From: Candidatus Abyssobacteria bacterium SURF_5
GTDB lineage: Bacteria; Abyssobacteria; SURF-5
Direction of reading: 5' to 3'
Length of the DNA stretch: 64,000 bases
Assembly: GCA_003598085.1 (NCBI GenBank)
Contig: QZKU01000042.1
Span: 1-64,000, forward strand
The notes under the pieces are model-generated. The model had not been told where the DNA came from. It did no database searches and saw only the letters and a program-made list of their open reading frames with translations. Both the position numbers and the translations under genes were made by a program. This document shows positions 10,104 through 18,126 of the stretch, piece after piece; the first letter of the stretch is position 1, and every line of letters begins with the position of its first letter.

Positions 10104-10706
10104 TCAAATTCTCTTTTTCGCTTTTACGCAATACAGGCTTGAATGGGCCGGGTCCGCCGATTTAAAAAGTTCGGGTCCTCTTATTCCGAGGAAGTATTCC
10201 GTTTTTTCCAGTGCGAAGATTTGGGAAATCGCCTGTTCGATGGCTTTCAAGTTCACGTGCCTGATCTTATTGACGTAGGACTCAGGATCCCTCCTTTTCT
10301 GTTTGAAGAAGAACGATTCTGGATTCAGAAGCATAACAAGGATGGTTCCTCCAGGTCTGAGGATCCTCTCGCTTTCGCGGAGCGCTTCAGAATAGTTGTC
10401 TATAAACTGGAGAGACGCCACGTATATTATTGCGTCGAAGCTTGAGCTTTCGATATTAGTCTGCTCCGCTGAGCCCAGCACGGTCCTCACTTGATCGGGA
10501 GCTTGATTCAGAGCTTCTTGAGAAATATCCAGCCCCGTGACGTCAAATCCGTAATGACCAAGCATGCCCTCTATAATCGCTGGTCCACAGCCAACACTCA
10601 GGAGGTTTTTGCAACCGGCTAGTTCTCTCCGGAGATAGTCTACCTCTTGTTGGAAGACGCGCTTCCAAAAGTCGCTTCTGCATGACTCGTAATATGAACT
10701 TGTCAT
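10104..10706 (-). CDS. Class I SAM-dependent methyltransferase
   Basis: The 200-residue protein has the class I methyltransferase fold. Motif I is LLSVGCGPAIIEGML, followed by the acidic VTGLDISQEAL, FDAIIYVASLQF and the ILRPGGTILV strand. The substrate is unknown; the overall layout resembles UbiE/small-molecule methyltransferases. The start overlaps the stop of the CooC remnant as ATGA, so it is probably the last gene of the sigma-54-driven cluster. Confidence 0.85.
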   Translation of the reverse strand: MTSSYYESCRSDFWKRVFQQEVDYLRRELAGCKNLLSVGCGPAIIEGMLGHYGFDVTGLDISQEALNQAPDQVRTVLGSAEQTNIESSSFDAIIYVASLQFIDNYSEALRESERILRPGGTILVMLLNPESFFFKQKRRDPESYVNKIRHVNLKAIEQAISQIFALEKTEYFLGIRGPELFKSADPAHSSLYCVKAKKRI

Positions 10707-10951
10707 CGTACAACCCTTTTACCGTCGTCCTGGTCGCGCGAGTGCCGGCTGAGCAATTTGCCGGTTATCCTTGCCACCTCGGCAGCCGCTGCGCCGTCAA
10801 GATTCAGGCGGCGTCCGGTGAGACAAGAAGATTGGATCTCACAATGAAATCCTACCGTGCCGATGACCGGAATATGCAATTCCGTCAATCTTGCCGCCAC
10901 CGTATTCCCCTGCTCGGCGCTTCCTCCTTTTCCACAGATACATATTTTCAT
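10703..10951 (-). pseudogene. CooC-like ATPase remnant with internal deletion
   Basis: The 82-residue frame starts as the P-loop of a CooC/NifH-like metallo-enzyme maturation ATPase (MKICICGKGGS). After GKGGS it jumps straight to the C-terminal end of that family (IPVIGTVGF, SSCLTGRRLNLDGAAAAEV). The Walker A lysine/serine GKST, the switch regions and the metal-binding cysteines are all gone, which fits a single in-frame deletion of most of a roughly 250-residue gene. It cannot hydrolyse ATP. Translation may persist only to couple the overlapping methyltransferase. The intact form would fit the corrinoid/CO chemistry suggested by the RACo-like neighbour. Confidence 0.6.
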
Positions 10952-11034: not shown

Positions 11035-12732
11035 TTATTTAGCTCCATTTCCCGTAACGAGTTCAAAGGGCCAGGTGACTACTCCGCCGTCCATAAATTT
11101 GGTGTCTTTGAATCCGGCTGCGTCGAGAATTTTGCAGGCCTCATATCCCCTGAGGCTTATCTTGCAAAACGCGATGATTTCCTTATCCTTCGGCAATTCA
11201 TTCAAACGCGTTCTCAATTGGCCGAGTGGAATGAATTTTGTGCCTTTTATGCGCACCTCATCGTATTCATTCTGGTTGCGTACATCAAGGAATACAAAGT
11301 CATCGCCCCTATCGAGCTTTCCCTTTACTGCCAGGGGGGAGATTCCTCTTGCCTCTCCGCACAGCTTATTGCGCATGACATTGATCGCGGTAAGCGCGGG
11401 CCCAATCGGCGAGGAATACGGCGGGGCGTAGCAGAGGTCAAGATTGCCGATGGATTCAGCCGTGGCTCCACCGTTTATGAGAGTTGCAAAGATGTCGGTT
11501 CGCTTGTCGACATCGCCCATGCCGACCACCTGAGCGCCGACCAGTCTGCCGCCCGCTTTCTCGGCCAAAAGTTTTGTGGCGATGAGTTTGGCGCCGGGAT
11601 AGTAATGGGCGCGGTCGGGTATTGGGACGATGACAGTCTCGACATCAAGACCGAGCTTACGGGCGTCTCTCTCGCTGAGTCCGGTTCTTCCGATATTCAT
11701 ATCGAAGGTTTTAAACACCATTGTTCCCAATATGCCAGGAAACGTCTCCGCGCCTCCCGTGACGTTGATGCCAACGATGCGGCCCTGTTTGTTTGCGGTC
11801 GATCCGAGTGGGACAAAGGCAGGCTTTTTCGTGACAAGGTTGTAGGTCTCGACGCAATCGCCGGCCGCGAAGATGTTAGGATCGCACGTTCGCATGTATT
11901 TGTCAACTCGAATAGCGCCGGTCTCGCCCACATCGATGCCGGCTTCTTTAGCGAGTTTCACATTCGGTCTTACGCCGATGCCGAGGACGGCGAGATCGGC
12001 TTTCAGGACTCCTTTTTCCGTGATTACCTGGCTCAGATTGCCGGCATTGTCTCCCTTGAATTCAATTACGCCGTCGGATGTCCTCACCACGACGCCCTTA
12101 TCCTCGAGGTGTCTCCTTACCATGATCGACATTTCATAATCGAGGCCGAGCATTATCTGGTCCATTTTTTCCACGATAGTGGTTTCAACGCCCCGCTCAA
12201 CGAGGGCTTCCGCCGCCTCGAGGCCGATAAAGCCGCCGCCGATAATCACGCCCTTCTTGCCTTTGCCGACGAGACCGCGGAGCGCTTCGGCATCTTCTAT
12301 GGATTGCAGTGTATGGATGTTCTTCAGGTTGATTCCTGGAATAGGAGGCACAACCGCTTGAGCGCCGGTAGCCAGAAGGAGCTTGTCATATGGGAGAGAG
12401 AAGCCTTCGCCGGTATCCAGGTTTTTCCCCACGACTTTCTTGTTTTTGCGGTCGATGGAGGTGACTTCCTGATGCGTGATGATTTCCACTTCCTTCATCT
12501 TGAGGAAAAATTCCGGGGTCCGGGGTATCCCGATGATATTCGAGTAAAGAGCCTCCTGCTTTTGAATCGCTCCCGCGACATAATAGGGGAGCCCGCAAGC
12601 GGCGAACGAGATGAAGGTGCCTTTCTCGAGGACGGTGATTTTGATGCCGGGGTTGCGGCGGCGTGCCTTTGAAGCAGCCTTGAGGCCTGCGGCGCTGGCG
12701 CCGATCACGATGAAATTCATTGTCTCGCCCAT
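11035..12732 (-). CDS. CoA-disulfide reductase-type flavoprotein with rhodanese domain
   Basis: This 565-residue fusion starts with a pyridine-nucleotide-disulfide oxidoreductase (FAD motif IVIGASAAGLKAA, NAD(P) motif GVIIGGGFIGLEAA, FAD motif NIFAAGDCVE). It carries the single redox Cys of CoA-disulfide reductases and NADH:polysulfide/peroxidase enzymes in SFAACGLPYY (Cys46). A rhodanese domain occupies about residues 465-560 with catalytic Cys523 in FCKISLRGYEA. The domain order matches CoADR-Rhd, which reduces CoA disulfides, CoA persulfide or polysulfide. GGAGGAG precedes the start. It follows the RACo-like gene by 39 bases, suggesting thiol/persulfide chemistry coupled to corrinoid or Fe-S metabolism. 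Confidence 0.9.
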   Translation of the reverse strand: MGETMNFIVIGASAAGLKAASKARRRNPGIKITVLEKGTFISFAACGLPYYVAGAIQKQEALYSNIIGIPRTPEFFLKMKEVEIITHQEVTSIDRKNKKVVGKNLDTGEGFSLPYDKLLLATGAQAVVPPIPGINLKNIHTLQSIEDAEALRGLVGKGKKGVIIGGGFIGLEAAEALVERGVETTIVEKMDQIMLGLDYEMSIMVRRHLEDKGVVVRTSDGVIEFKGDNAGNLSQVITEKGVLKADLAVLGIGVRPNVKLAKEAGIDVGETGAIRVDKYMRTCDPNIFAAGDCVETYNLVTKKPAFVPLGSTANKQGRIVGINVTGGAETFPGILGTMVFKTFDMNIGRTGLSERDARKLGLDVETVIVPIPDRAHYYPGAKLIATKLLAEKAGGRLVGAQVVGMGDVDKRTDIFATLINGGATAESIGNLDLCYAPPYSSPIGPALTAINVMRNKLCGEARGISPLAVKGKLDRGDDFVFLDVRNQNEYDEVRIKGTKFIPLGQLRTRLNELPKDKEIIAFCKISLRGYEACKILDAAGFKDTKFMDGGVVTWPFELVTGNGAK

Positions 12733-12771: not shown

Positions 12772-14862
12772 TCACGAAATGGTTGCATTCTTTGCTGATG
12801 AGAACAACTGCAAATTTGTATGCGGCAAGAACAGCGCCGCCGAATACTGGTCCATGAATTCCTGTGAAGTGCTGAAGTCGAGATAGGTCATCATGCCGGC
12901 TATTCGATTACATTCGTCTCTGCTTTCATGGCAGAGCAATGCCTGGTAGGCCCCCTGTACGGCGCTGTTGCCAAGATATTGAAATTTGGATTCTTCCAAA
13001 TCGGGCAACATGCCGATCGCGATTGCCTGCGGTATCTTGATGTATCGGCCGAATCCGCCGGCGATCATGATCCGGTCGATCTGTGCGAACGTCAGACCCA
13101 CGCGGGCCAGCATTGTGGCAAAGCCGGCATAAATAGCGGCTTTACTTCGCATCAGGGTATCGACGTCGGCCTGTGTGAACACGATATCCTCTCCCAGCTC
13201 TGACTCTTCAGCCGGTACCAGCACATACTCCGGCCCGGCCTCGCTCTGCCTGACGTATTGGTTGGCGCCTCTTTCCTTGAACCTTCCTCTGCGGTCTATA
13301 ATGTCGGCTTGAAGCATGGCGGAGAGCAGGTCGATCATGCCGGAGCCGCATATGCCTCTCGGGGGCAGGTCTCCATTGACCTCATAGGTCGGCGCGAGGG
13401 TAAGCGGGTCGATGTTGATGTGTTCGATGGCGCCTTCTTCCGCCCGCATGCCGCAGCGGATTCCACCGCCCTCGAAAGCCGGTCCTGCGGAGCATGAGGC
13501 CGTCATCAGCCAATCGGAATTGCCGAGGACAATTTCGCCATTGGTGCCAACGTCTATAAACAGAGTCGTGCGGGGGTCCCTTTGCATGCCTGAGGCGAGG
13601 ACACCCGCCACGATGTCGCCTCCCACGTACGCCGTATTTCCGGGAACAATATGAACTATGGCGTTTGGACAGTAGCCCAGCCCGATATCCTTTGAGCGCA
13701 GTACCGAAAATGTCGTCGCGGTAGGCAGGTACGGCTCGCGTCGGATGTATTGAGGGTCGATTTGCAGCAGGAGGTGCATCATCGTGGTATTTCCTGCGAT
13801 CGAGATGCTGTCGATATCGGCGGGCGCGACGGCTGCAGACGTTACGATTTCCCTCAGCAATCCCTCCAAAGTGCCCACAATGAGCCGATGCAGCTTCTCC
13901 TGACAGCCGGGAGTGCTTTGCGTGCAAACGATTCGCGAGATGACATCTTCTCCATGCGCCACCTGCGCATTCTGGCTTGAAGCGGCTGCCACCACTCTTC
14001 CGTCCGACAGATTGACAAGATAGGTAACGACAGAAGTTGTGCCGACATCCACCGCAACTCCGTAGCCGTTACCCGAGGTCGTGGTATTTTTCAGATCGAC
14101 TATTTCGCAAACGCCATCGTCTTTGTACAGGCTGATTGTGGCGCGCCAATCGTTTTTTCTCAGCGTTTCGCCAAGCTTGCGGATTACCGGCAAATCGACG
14201 CGAAAGAAAGTTGAGAGATGCCCCGCCCTTCGCAGCGCCCGGACCACCCTATCGAGGTCGCTAGAGGAATCCTCAATTGTAGGCGGCGGCAAATCAACCG
14301 AGGCGCGTTCGGTCAACGGGCTCAATTTTGTTGACGAGCTGCACAGGACGGATGTAACGGCGGCGGCATCGTCAAGGATTTTTATCTTGCGTCGCTGGGA
14401 TTGCGGTGGTATGGTGACCGTGAGGTCATCTGTTACCCGGGTGGTGCATGCCAGCGTGAAACCGTCTTTGATTTCGTCAGGGGTGAGATAGGGATTGGAT
14501 GCAGAAAGATATTTTCCCCCTTCGATACGAACCTTGCATTTGCCACAGATTCCGCGACCGCCGCATGAGTTGTTCAGGAAAAGTCCCGCCTCCTCAACTC
14601 CCTCAAAGATAGTTTTCCCCTCTTGGACAACCACTTCCTTTTCATAAGGCAGGAATTTCACCTTGAAGCTCTTGGCTGACTCTTTCTGGAGAGGGGCAAG
14701 TTCGGCTTCCCCGTACTTTTGCATCTCCCATATGATGCAACCGGTTCTGTACTTGCAATAGATATCCGGGTTGCGGCATGTCAGGCACTCCTGGCATAGA
14801 TAGACATCGTCTTTCTGGCAGCGAAAGGTCGCTTCCCGGTCGGGATGATTACTGCACTTCAT
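12772..14862 (-). CDS. RACo-like reductive activator of corrinoid proteins
   Basis: The 696-residue protein has a [2Fe-2S] ferredoxin domain (cysteines 100, 106, 109 and 139 in NNSCGGRGICGKCK and LACTT), a linker, and an ASKHA ATPase-type domain from about residue 265 (VAVDVGTTSVVTYLVNL, IAGNTTMMHLLL, FIDVGTNGEIVLG, GGFGRYI). This is the layout of RACo/AcsV/RamA-type ATP-dependent activators that reduce Co(II) corrinoid to Co(I). It carries an extra N-terminal Cys/His-rich zinc-binding module (residues 3-42, B-box-like) that typical RACo lacks. AGGAGGT precedes the start. No corrinoid protein or methyltransferase of that system is in the window, so the client is unknown. Confidence 0.88.
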   Translation of the reverse strand: MKCSNHPDREATFRCQKDDVYLCQECLTCRNPDIYCKYRTGCIIWEMQKYGEAELAPLQKESAKSFKVKFLPYEKEVVVQEGKTIFEGVEEAGLFLNNSCGGRGICGKCKVRIEGGKYLSASNPYLTPDEIKDGFTLACTTRVTDDLTVTIPPQSQRRKIKILDDAAAVTSVLCSSSTKLSPLTERASVDLPPPTIEDSSSDLDRVVRALRRAGHLSTFFRVDLPVIRKLGETLRKNDWRATISLYKDDGVCEIVDLKNTTTSGNGYGVAVDVGTTSVVTYLVNLSDGRVVAAASSQNAQVAHGEDVISRIVCTQSTPGCQEKLHRLIVGTLEGLLREIVTSAAVAPADIDSISIAGNTTMMHLLLQIDPQYIRREPYLPTATTFSVLRSKDIGLGYCPNAIVHIVPGNTAYVGGDIVAGVLASGMQRDPRTTLFIDVGTNGEIVLGNSDWLMTASCSAGPAFEGGGIRCGMRAEEGAIEHINIDPLTLAPTYEVNGDLPPRGICGSGMIDLLSAMLQADIIDRRGRFKERGANQYVRQSEAGPEYVLVPAEESELGEDIVFTQADVDTLMRSKAAIYAGFATMLARVGLTFAQIDRIMIAGGFGRYIKIPQAIAIGMLPDLEESKFQYLGNSAVQGAYQALLCHESRDECNRIAGMMTYLDFSTSQEFMDQYSAALFLPHTNLQLFSSAKNATIS

Positions 14863-14958: not shown

Positions 14959-16227
14959 TCATATCTTCCGGGTTCCGACTTTTTCCAGCGCAAGCCAGAC
15001 TTCGACGATATTGGCGGGGCGACGTTTTTCGTTTTTTTCGAGCATTTTCACGATAATCGAATCCAGCTGCCCTGGAAGCGACGGAATAAGGTGCGATGGG
15101 AAGGGTGGACGGAAATGAGGCGAGAGCACTCTCGCCACCAAATCGCCCTTGCCCGAGCGCCCATTCCAGGGAGAATGACTTGTGAACAGCTCATACAGAG
15201 TGACCCCCAGACAAAAAATGTCAGAGCGAAACGTCGCTTTTCTCTTAATGATCTGTTCCGGCGACATGTACCTCATGTCGCCCCCCTTCACATGGGCTGA
15301 GGAGTGGAAGATCCCCTTTATGAGGCTCGCCAATGCGAAGTCTGAAATTTTGACCTCCTTGTGGACCGGGAAAAAAGGCCCCATCATGTCCCGGGATACC
15401 AGGATGTTTTCCGGCTTGATCTGGCCGTGGACAATCCTTTGGTCGTGAAGATAGATGAGGCCCTCGCATATTCTCTGGGCCGTATCCATCAGGTGGTTGA
15501 AGCGGATATGTGGGTCGGGGAAGGACTTCGCGCTTTCCTCGATGCAATGCCGGAGATTGAACCCGTTCATATACTCCGTCACGAGATATCCGAATTTGCC
15601 ATCTGTGAAGAAATCATAGCATTGGAGGATGTTCTTGTGTTTCAGGGGACAATGAAACTCGGGCTCCGAATATTTTCTTCCGGAGCCGGCATGAGCCTTT
15701 GGGAGAAGGACTTTTATCGTCACCATCCTTGATGTTGGTCTGTGGATGGCGCGGTACACCTTGCTTGACTGGCTTTCGCCTATTTGCTCGCAGAACTCGT
15801 AATCCCTGTTCATTATTTCGAATTTGTCAGGACTTTTCGGGAATCCCGCCGAGCTGTGCGCTGCGGCATACTCAGAAGCCTTTCGCAGTAAGTCCTTCCA
15901 ATCGACAACACCAACAATGCGTTCTCTCACCGTACCGTCCACGATGATTAATAAGGTAGGCACAGCCGCTATATCGTATGTAGTCGCTATCAAAGGATAT
16001 TTCTCAACATTCACCCTCACGATATTGAGGCTGCTCGAGAGTTTTTCACGGAGGGCATCAAGCATCGGCAGCATCCGTTTACATGGAACGCATGATGGTG
16101 TGAAACACGCAACGAAAACGGGTCTGCCCGAGCAGGAACACAGCCTTTGCAGTTCTTGGTCTGATAGTTGCGGGATGCCCGGCAAAGCAATACCCTCCTC
16201 CGAATCCGCACATGTCCGATTCGCCAT
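14959..16227 (-). CDS. Thioredoxin-Ser/Thr pseudokinase fusion
   Basis: The 422-residue protein joins a thioredoxin domain (about 15-125; active site SCVPC with Cys46 and Cys49, cis-Pro in AVPT at residue 90) to a protein-kinase fold (about 140-415). The kinase has a degraded glycine loop (IGESQSSKV) and the ATP-binding Lys172 in VTIKV. Its catalytic loop reads HGQIKPEN instead of HRDLKPEN, so the catalytic aspartate is Gln269. DFG is DFA (296-298), SPE stands for APE, and the F-helix Asp in RSDIFCLGV is kept. It is most likely a pseudokinase using the fold for binding or scaffolding, possibly redox-gated by the thioredoxin. It follows a small lipoprotein gene under a sigma-54 promoter. Confidence 0.9.
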   Translation of the reverse strand: MANRTCADSEEGIALPGIPQLSDQELQRLCSCSGRPVFVACFTPSCVPCKRMLPMLDALREKLSSSLNIVRVNVEKYPLIATTYDIAAVPTLLIIVDGTVRERIVGVVDWKDLLRKASEYAAAHSSAGFPKSPDKFEIMNRDYEFCEQIGESQSSKVYRAIHRPTSRMVTIKVLLPKAHAGSGRKYSEPEFHCPLKHKNILQCYDFFTDGKFGYLVTEYMNGFNLRHCIEESAKSFPDPHIRFNHLMDTAQRICEGLIYLHDQRIVHGQIKPENILVSRDMMGPFFPVHKEVKISDFALASLIKGIFHSSAHVKGGDMRYMSPEQIIKRKATFRSDIFCLGVTLYELFTSHSPWNGRSGKGDLVARVLSPHFRPPFPSHLIPSLPGQLDSIIVKMLEKNEKRRPANIVEVWLALEKVGTRKI

Positions 16228-16284: not shown

Positions 16285-16476
16285 TCAGTATCCAAAGGGG
16301 GTGTCATAGAGCCACCAATCGGGCTGGTCAGCCGAAGCCGTTTGAACTTGAGACTGGCTCGAATCCCCCATTCCCAACTTCTCGATTTTAGAATTGGTTC
16401 TTGTTGTCGCGCCGCAAGCCATGAAGCTCGCCGTTATTCCCAACACGATTATGAGGAGCAGCAATCTTCTCTTCAT
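16285..16476 (-). CDS. Small lipoprotein
   Basis: This 63-residue protein has a type II signal peptide: positive start (MKRR), a Leu/Ile-rich core and lipobox FMAC with Cys21. The mature part is 43 residues, Ser/Gln-rich, ending WWLYDTPFGY. GGAGG lies eight bases upstream of the ATG. It is the first gene after the sigma-54 promoter and 57 bases before the thioredoxin-pseudokinase gene. I do not recognise a family. Confidence 0.75.
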   Translation of the reverse strand: MKRRLLLLIIVLGITASFMACGATTRTNSKIEKLGMGDSSQSQVQTASADQPDWWLYDTPFGY

Positions 16477-16544: not shown

Positions 16545-16559
16545 GCAATACACGTGCCA
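16545..16559 (-). promoter_or_regulatory. Sigma-54 (-24/-12) promoter
   Basis: The minus strand reads TGGCACGTGTATTGC, matching the sigma-54 consensus TGGCAC-N5-TTGC at every defined base, with the GG and GC elements at the required spacing. It lies about 70 bases upstream of the lipoprotein start at 16476 in the correct orientation. It should drive the lipoprotein, thioredoxin-pseudokinase, RACo-like and CoADR-rhodanese genes. Confidence 0.85.
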
Positions 16560-16667: not shown

Positions 16668-16681
16668 CGTTACATGTAACG
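16668..16681. promoter_or_regulatory. Palindromic upstream activator site 1
   Basis: CGTTACATGTAACG is a perfect 14-base palindrome about 110 bases upstream of the sigma-54 promoter, a normal position for an enhancer-binding protein dimer. Confidence 0.7.
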
Positions 16682-16701: not shown

Positions 16702-16715
16702 CGTTGCATGTTACG
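16702..16715. promoter_or_regulatory. Palindromic upstream activator site 2
   Basis: CGTTGCATGTTACG is a two-mismatch copy of site 1. Its centre is 34 bases away, about three helical turns, and it overlaps the stop codon of the sigma-54 activator gene. Two sites on one face of the helix would let activator dimers bind cooperatively. Confidence 0.65.
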
Positions 16716-18126
16716 GTTCTGCGGAAGGATTCTCGTGAAGGCCATATTTCTTGATGTTGCGCCACACCGTAGTGCGCGTGACGCCGAGGAGTCTGGCCGC
16801 TTTAGCTTTGTTCCATCCGGCTTTGGCGAGTGCGCTTTGGAGTGTTTCCCTGGTGATGGTGCCGGTAACTGAGGGGGTGCCGGAATCGGTTGCGTGGCAA
16901 ACAGGGCACGGCGAAATCTCTATGGGGAGAAGGTCCGGCGTGATGATCCTGCTTTTGGCGAGCACGAAGGCATGTTCGATCGCATTTTCAAGCTCGCGAA
17001 TGTTACCGGGCCACGCGTATGACATCAGGGTTCGAAGTGCGTCGGGATTTATTCCCCCGACAGGTTTCCCGGTCTGTTGGCGGAATTTCTGTATGAAGTG
17101 TTCAACCAGAAGAGGGATATCGTCTTTTCGTTCGGATAGAGGGGGAAGAAAGAGTGATACGACCTTGAGGCGATAATAGAGGTCGTCCCGAAAGGTTCCC
17201 TCTTTCATGAGTTGTCTGAGGTCCTGGTGCGTGGCGGCGATGATGCGGACGTCTACATGAAGGGGCTTGATATCTCCGACCCGTTCTATCACTTTCTCCT
17301 GGAGTGCGCGGAGCAGTTTCACCTGCACATTGAGAGAAATATCTCCTATTTCATCCAGGAAAAGGGTGCCGCCATTTGCCAGTTCGAAGCGTCCAATTTT
17401 ATCGCGGATGGCGCCAGTAAAAGCGCCGCGGACATGGCCGAACAATTCGCTTTCGAGCAGATTTTCCGAGAGGGCGGCGCAATTCAGCTTGACGAAGGGA
17501 CCGTCCGCGCGGAGGCTCTTGAAATGCAGGGCGCTGGCAACGAGTTCCTTGCCGGTTCCACTTTCGCCGAAGATGAGGACGGATGCGGATGTGGGCGCCA
17601 CGTCTTCAATGAGGTTGTAAACCTCCTGCATGCGCGCGTCCTTGCCGATGATACCCTCGAATTTGTGGCGTTCCCTCAGCTCTCTGCGGAGGAGGCGGAC
17701 TTCCTCTTGGGCCCGTTTAAGGTTTGTTATATCGGTCAGGTTTTCGACTCCGCCGATGATGTTTCCGTTTTTGTCCCTAAGCACTCGCGCATTTTTCAGG
17801 AGAGTCACGAAGTGTCCGTCTTTGGTTCGGATGGTGCACTCGTTGTTAGAGACCTCGCCTTTTTCAAATAATCCACAACTGCGGATGCCGTCAACGCAGT
17901 TGGTGCCGAGACAATTATCTCCCTCAAGAATGTCGCAGTTTTTTCCGATGACATCTTCTGCGGTGTAGCCGGTGATTCTTTCGGCACCCTTATTCCAGAA
18001 CGTAATGGTTCCATCGAGATCGACGGTGAACAAGCCATCGGCCATGGTGTCGCAGATGACCTCGAGCAAGGGAGGTCGCAGCGAGGCGGCTGCCTTTTTG
18101 TTTGTGTTATCTTGTCTGACTTTCAC
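16711..18126 (-). CDS. PAS-type sigma-54 activator (NtrC family)
   Basis: This 471-residue regulator has an N-terminal PAS domain (about 20-135), an AAA+ sigma-54-interaction domain (about 160-395) and a Fis-type helix-turn-helix (about 425-465, [20 protein letters not shown]). The AAA+ part is intact: Walker A GESGTGKE, the GAFTGA loop that contacts sigma-54, Walker B LFLDEIGD. It has no receiver domain. The PAS domain contains a cluster of cysteines (64, 72, 77, 84, 97), suggesting redox, metal or cluster sensing rather than phosphorylation. It lies directly upstream of a sigma-54 promoter with two palindromes on the same strand, which it very probably controls. Confidence 0.92.

Follow-up and report, generated by a model that had tools for sequence, protein, structure and literature searches.

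The main finding of this work was the identification, on the minus strand of the window (the whole stretch of 64,000 nucleotides of Candidatus Abyssobacteria bacterium SURF_5 that was analysed), of an open reading frame of 422 aa (14959..16227) that joins a thioredoxin domain to a protein-kinase fold best described as a maintained pseudokinase, encoded in a σ54 operon together with a RACo-like corrinoid reductive activator. The genome of SURF_5 comprises 5.1 Mb in 145 contigs, and the comparison within the phylum covered three Abyssubacteria genomes.

Domain layout and the altered kinase site

The reading of the open reading frame, together with Pfam profiles, bore out the strand, length and residues given by the first-pass annotation. 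Only the families PF00069, PF07714 and PF00085 were matched. The thioredoxin domain (residues 21-115; 15883..16167, minus strand) scored 52 bits against a PF00085 cut-off of 23.5 bits, and the kinase fold (residues 143-405; 15013..15801, minus strand) scored 148 bits against a PF00069 cut-off of 31.7 bits, the latter match spanning positions 1-253 of the 263 in the profile; both scores are far beyond chance. The TTG at 16185 (residue 15), which would give a protein of 408 aa, is probably the true start rather than the annotated one, since a strong GGAGG site precedes it, the TTG is kept in SURF_17 and a frame-breaking indel lies upstream of it.

The N-terminal part carries a CVPC active site (Cys46/Cys49; 16081..16092, minus strand) and the cis-Pro motif AVPT, and in the predicted model its strands and helices follow the thioredoxin order. 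It departs from TrxA-type proteins in having SCVPC for WCGPC and ACF for DFW, and it reached 62 bits against the TIGR01068 cut-off of 96.8. Thioredoxin activity is uncertain, because the Trp that precedes the active site in canonical thioredoxins and their buried Asp are both missing.

In the kinase part, the catalytic loop reads H267-G268-Q269-I-K271-P-E-N274 (HGQIKPEN against HRDxKPxN), so that HGQ (267-269; 15421..15429, minus strand) stands in the place of HRD, and the DFG region reads SDFALA, with DFA (D296-F-A298; 15334..15342, minus strand) in the place of DFG. The β3 Lys172 (15712..15714, minus strand), within TIKV, is retained, as had been described for this Lys and for both replacements, and the kinase alignment showed Lys172, Lys271, Asn274 and the DFG Asp296 to be invariant with active kinases. 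Further defects, beyond those described earlier, are a degenerate glycine loop (GESQSS against GxGxxG, with Gly2 and Gly3 gone) and, in the predicted model, the absence of helix αC. Thus, among the features of active Ser/Thr kinases, the β3 Lys, the catalytic Asn and the DFG Asp are present, while the HRD Asp, the glycine-rich loop and helix αC (the last as a prediction) are not. The loss of the HRD Asp places the protein within the sequence definition of a pseudokinase, which asks for at least one of the Lys, the HRD Asp and the DFG Asp to be missing (PMC12599244).

The AlphaFold model (mean pLDDT of 85) displays a thioredoxin fold and a kinase fold, with no helix between β3 and β4, where αC is expected (residues 176-202, sequence PEFHCP; 15622..15702, minus strand). 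An intact HGD paralogue, predicted by the same method from an overlapping alignment, has a clear αC at residues 47-62. Since the αC region has lower pLDDT, its absence is a supported prediction and not a fact. When the model was searched with Foldseek against the PDB, the best matches were PknB-type kinases (TMt ~0.8), and none of the 50 matches listed spans both domains. With a degenerate glycine loop and no αC in the model, the protein may bind nucleotide weakly or not at all; the nucleotide-gated binding proposed in the first-pass annotation may still hold, given that Lys172, Asn274 and Asp296 are kept.

The altered site is shared with the orthologue of SURF_17, which is 77% identical and has the same HGQ and DFA. 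In a set of 66 aligned kinases, drawn from the three Abyssubacteria genomes and from the best matches elsewhere, the HRD position was occupied by HRD in 51, HGD in five, HQN in two and HQD in two, besides singles, and the combination of HGQ and DFA occurred only in the window protein and its SURF_17 orthologue. The nearest paralogues (33-34%), found in all three genomes, have HGDMKPENIL, DFG and a good glycine loop. The first-pass annotation had asked whether the HGQ change is conserved: it is kept in the sole true orthologue. A predominance of HRD among homologues, which that annotation named as contrary to its reading, applies to kinase homologues in general and not to this orthologue.

Between the two orthologues on which conservation was judged, the dN/dS was 0.152 for the thioredoxin, which is 74% identical, and 0.150 for the kinase, with dS of 0.7-0.9. 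As dN/dS is about 0.15 in both domains, the altered site is maintained and not decaying, in line with the pseudokinase status assigned earlier: the catalytic Asp is absent (Gln269) from both orthologues, under purifying selection. That the gene is a decaying, functionless kinase would agree with the lost catalytic residues, but it is a highly improbable explanation, already contradicted by the dN/dS of both domains and by the identity of HGQ and DFA over a long divergence. An origin of the pseudokinase was sought in a tree, where the pair from the window and SURF_17 stood on a long stem without a supported sister and showed no close tie to any one intact kinase.

Loss of the catalytic Asp does not always abolish catalysis. 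ErbB3, with HRN, is still somewhat active (PMC3281104), and SelO, whose kinase fold also lacks this Asp, is a protein AMPylase with an effect on redox homeostasis (PMC3281104, PMC12599244). The fold might therefore still be catalytic, through weak phosphotransfer (as in ErbB3) or another reaction such as the AMPylation of SelO; the thioredoxin would then be its redox switch or its substrate. The four residues kept in common with active kinases agree with this alternative, which we nevertheless regard as unlikely, considering that two of the three loop glycines are lost, that αC is missing from the model and that the protein has a plain Ser/Thr kinase profile with no match to the SelO family.

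Fusion and distribution of the architecture

The two domains are separated in SURF_5 by a linker (15816..15861, minus strand) that is weakly conserved with respect to SURF_17. At its upstream edge lies a 2-nt indel that divides the two parts in SURF_17, where the thioredoxin frame stops at a TAG, the kinase is in another frame and the kinase ATG overlaps that TAG (ATGCCAGTGTATAG). The adjacency of thioredoxin and kinase is thus common to both genomes and the single chain is found in SURF_5 only. The chain described in the first-pass annotation accordingly holds for SURF_5, and in SURF_17 gives way to overlapping genes in different frames; a covalent tie between thiol redox and the kinase fold, likewise proposed there, is weakened, because the only relative has the two parts as overlapping neighbouring genes. 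A programmed frameshift in SURF_17 was considered and rejected, as no slippery context was seen on inspection and the start-stop overlap is simpler.

A sequencing error at the linker is possible in either genome. We consider it quite unlikely that the single chain arose by misassembly, or by a mutation private to one genome, from two genes that naturally overlap and are translationally coupled. The overlapped TAG and ATG of SURF_17, the frames shifted by the 2-nt indel and the weak conservation of the linker would fit such an explanation; nevertheless, the indel lies outside a homopolymer, the sequence of the window reads through it cleanly in one frame and the derived state could be in either genome. 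Moreover, this alternative changes the functional reading little.

Homologues with the same domain order, a search proposed in the first-pass annotation, were found to a limited extent: SURF_17 has the order of thioredoxin and pseudokinase, but split, and no other case appeared. A pattern scan of the genomes of 84,980 species recovered this order at SURF_17 only. Across the domain, 290 genomes gave elsewhere only kinase-only or thioredoxin-only matches, and 396 genomes of one kinase-bearing phylum plus five of another yielded no match at E<1e-33. In the large genome sets, scoring was confined to the few best candidates of each genome, so that a distant fusion could escape. Altogether, the ~690 whole genomes and the pattern scan, with limited sensitivity to distant cases, disclosed no thioredoxin-pseudokinase elsewhere, and no plasmid match covered 80% of the query. 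Two matches that reached the thioredoxin region (G044 and G016) were ordinary long multidomain kinases with HRD or HGD. A bacterial thioredoxin-kinase fusion was not found in a literature search either. The architecture thus appears to be rare and so far confined to two genera.

The operon and its conservation

The gene order in SURF_5 is activator, σ54 promoter with palindrome, lipoprotein, thioredoxin-pseudokinase, RACo-like activator, CoA-disulfide reductase with rhodanese, and CooC-like remnant. The activator (16711..18126, minus strand) is a PAS-AAA+-HTH protein with a Cys-rich PAS domain and is 87-88% identical to that of SURF_17. Its PAS domain has six conserved Cys and a Cys-rich loop, with NNEC in its sequence, which is conserved in SURF_17 and is a possible metal or redox sensor. 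The promoter TGGCACGTGTATTGC (16545..16559, minus strand) has the exact σ54 consensus, is conserved in SURF_17 and is the sole zero-mismatch σ54 match in the window. A perfect palindrome, CGTTACATGTAACG (16668..16681), is a putative upstream activator site; in SURF_5 and SURF_17 alike it precedes the -24 box by 115-116 bp, the spacings of promoter and palindrome being equal within 1 bp. No further exact copies of it were found across the three genomes; a near-copy with one mismatch (G000:C109:15388-15401; L099) may be another site on which the regulator acts.

The first gene of the operon (16285..16476, minus strand) encodes a small lipoprotein of 63 aa, with the lipobox ASFMAC and the ending PDWWLYDTPFGY, which is 59% identical to that of SURF_17 and was found, in the three genomes searched, at two loci only, those of the SURF_5 and SURF_17 operons. 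Its C-terminus has the form PDWW(L/V)YDTP(F/Y)GY, and it has no Pfam match. The thioredoxin-pseudokinase gene is followed, after a gap of 96 nt with no terminator-like site on the minus strand, by the gene of the RACo-like corrinoid reductive activator (12772..14862, minus strand; 84% identity to SURF_17). In this protein, residues 1-60 form an extra Cys/His-rich, B-box-like module before the ferredoxin domain, and similar stretches of 60 aa were seen at three other places (G000:C26, G001:C231 and G002:C20). Next come a CoA-disulfide reductase-like flavoenzyme with a rhodanese domain (11035..12732, minus strand; 78% identity to SURF_17) and the 82-aa remnant of a CooC/MinD-like NTPase (10703..10951, minus strand), which is intact in SURF_17 with 269 aa (L092 3379-4188, minus strand). 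An in-frame internal deletion of ~580 bp, which takes out the P-loop, accounts for the remnant and is either real or an assembly slip.

In SURF_17, a response-regulator gene is cut off by the end of the contig that carries the kinase, and the last 99 bp of this contig recur, without a mismatch, at the start of the contig that carries RACo. Contigs that adjoin in an assembly typically share an exact overlap of fixed length, and we infer that these two adjoin end to end. The possibility that the adjacency to RACo is not conserved, since a response regulator follows in SURF_17, was ruled out by this overlap, with RACo lying beyond it. The joined order is activator, lipoprotein, thioredoxin, pseudokinase, REC, RACo, CoA-disulfide reductase and CooC-like NTPase, which leaves the operon conserved in two genera. 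Its main proteins are 74-88% identical between SURF_5 and SURF_17, and the genome-wide AAI of the pair is ~65% (PMC6121073). The third Abyssubacteria genome lacks orthologues of the activator, the lipoprotein, the thioredoxin-pseudokinase and the operon RACo, and has only distant RACo homologues (42%). As far as sequence comparison goes, the operon is inherited as if it were a single unit. The corrinoid-activation genes pointed out earlier as neighbours have thus proved to be part of a conserved operon with its own σ54 promoter in both SURF_5 and SURF_17.

The pseudokinase could also be an allosteric regulator of the REC protein or of a genuine kinase, such as the HGD kinase at G000:C110, the thioredoxin being a separate housekeeping partner coupled in translation. 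The genome has ~20 Ser/Thr kinase matches, intact HGD paralogues exist in all three genomes, and in SURF_17 a REC gene adjoins and the thioredoxin and kinase are separate. We find this rather unlikely, however, because the two parts remain side by side in each genus, downstream of the same promoter, and because the intact kinases are encoded at other places in the genome and the tree ties the pair closely to none of them.

Candidate role and known systems

An operon that combines a thioredoxin with RACo, a disulfide reductase and a CooC-type NTPase, and that adjoins the gene of a Cys-rich PAS activator, reads as an inducible set for reductive repair or activation. Since the kinase is broken and is encoded with corrinoid-reactivation enzymes, our preferred, though tentative, hypothesis is that thioredoxin and pseudokinase constitute a maintained, redox-linked adaptor that does not transfer phosphate, serving in an inducible operon for the reductive activation of corrinoid or related metallo-proteins. 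RACo-type proteins carry out the ATP-dependent activation of Co(II) corrinoid proteins, RACo itself activating CoFeSP (PMC6739815), and a complete Wood-Ljungdahl pathway has been reported in SURF_5 and SURF_17 (PMC6121073). No corrinoid protein was found within the operon.

In the proposed mechanism, the Cys-rich PAS activator would sense a redox or substrate signal, bind CGTTACATGTAACG and fire the σ54 promoter, from which the genes would be co-transcribed. The RACo-like ATPase would then drive electrons into a corrinoid protein, and the operon would also supply the CoA-disulfide reductase/rhodanese, the CooC-type NTPase and the thioredoxin-pseudokinase. The kinase fold would transfer no phosphate and would serve to dock or regulate a partner, for which RACo, REC or a corrinoid protein are candidates; it would bring the thioredoxin to this partner or gate it there, possibly under the effect of a nucleotide, and the CVPC site would reduce or sense a disulfide of the partner. 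The more specific proposal that thioredoxin-pseudokinase gates RACo-type ATP-driven corrinoid reduction by thiol redox and nucleotide, through its own Cys-rich PAS-σ54 switch, is doubtful. Against the adaptor hypothesis in general, it counts that sharing an operon is no proof of physical coupling. The 1.5-kb flanks of RACo-like genes from other phyla contained no match to a thioredoxin or kinase gene.

Comparison with known systems places the protein near several of them. Bacterial Ser/Thr pseudokinases form at least seven families, including ActPs1-3, GLW, CP1 (in which ~40% of the members are pseudokinases), DYD and DLHK (PMC12599244). Like the window protein, they combine a Hanks-type fold with the loss of one or more catalytic motifs, but most of these families lose the Lys and/or the DFG, whereas here only the HRD Asp of the triad is lost; thioredoxin is not mentioned in that review (PMC12599244). 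The PknB/Stk1-type kinases (PF00069) provide the best sequence and fold matches to the kinase part, which differs from them by HGQ and DFA, by the degenerate glycine loop, by the lack of αC in the model and by the lack of PASTA domains. The SelO AMPylases share with it a kinase fold without the HRD Asp and a redox link (PMC3281104, PMC12599244), but the window protein has a conventional PF00069 profile without a SelO family match, and its CxxC lies in a true thioredoxin domain and not in a C-terminal tail, as in SelO. The operon RACo-like protein shares the 2Fe-2S, linker, middle and ASKHA domains with RACo/AcsV, although its 650 bits are below the AcsV cut-off of 800 and its N-terminal Cys-rich module is extra.

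Bacterial pseudokinases are common and few have a known function. The context of thioredoxin-pseudokinase is testable, as it offers its own promoter, an activator, a redox partner domain and a downstream RACo with an established in vitro assay. If the link is true, a pseudokinase would be tied to the reactivation of corrinoid/Wood-Ljungdahl enzymes, a process of little-known regulation.

A second conserved pseudokinase, of ~278 aa, was also observed, with HQN for HRD, DFY for DFG and the glycine loop GNPQES. Its motifs were read at L094 4983-5819 (minus strand; G000:C53) and at L048 (G001), and a 27% match of equal length (G002:C3:44466-45254) is a probable copy in G002. A PilZ/YcgR-like gene comes after this second pseudokinase.
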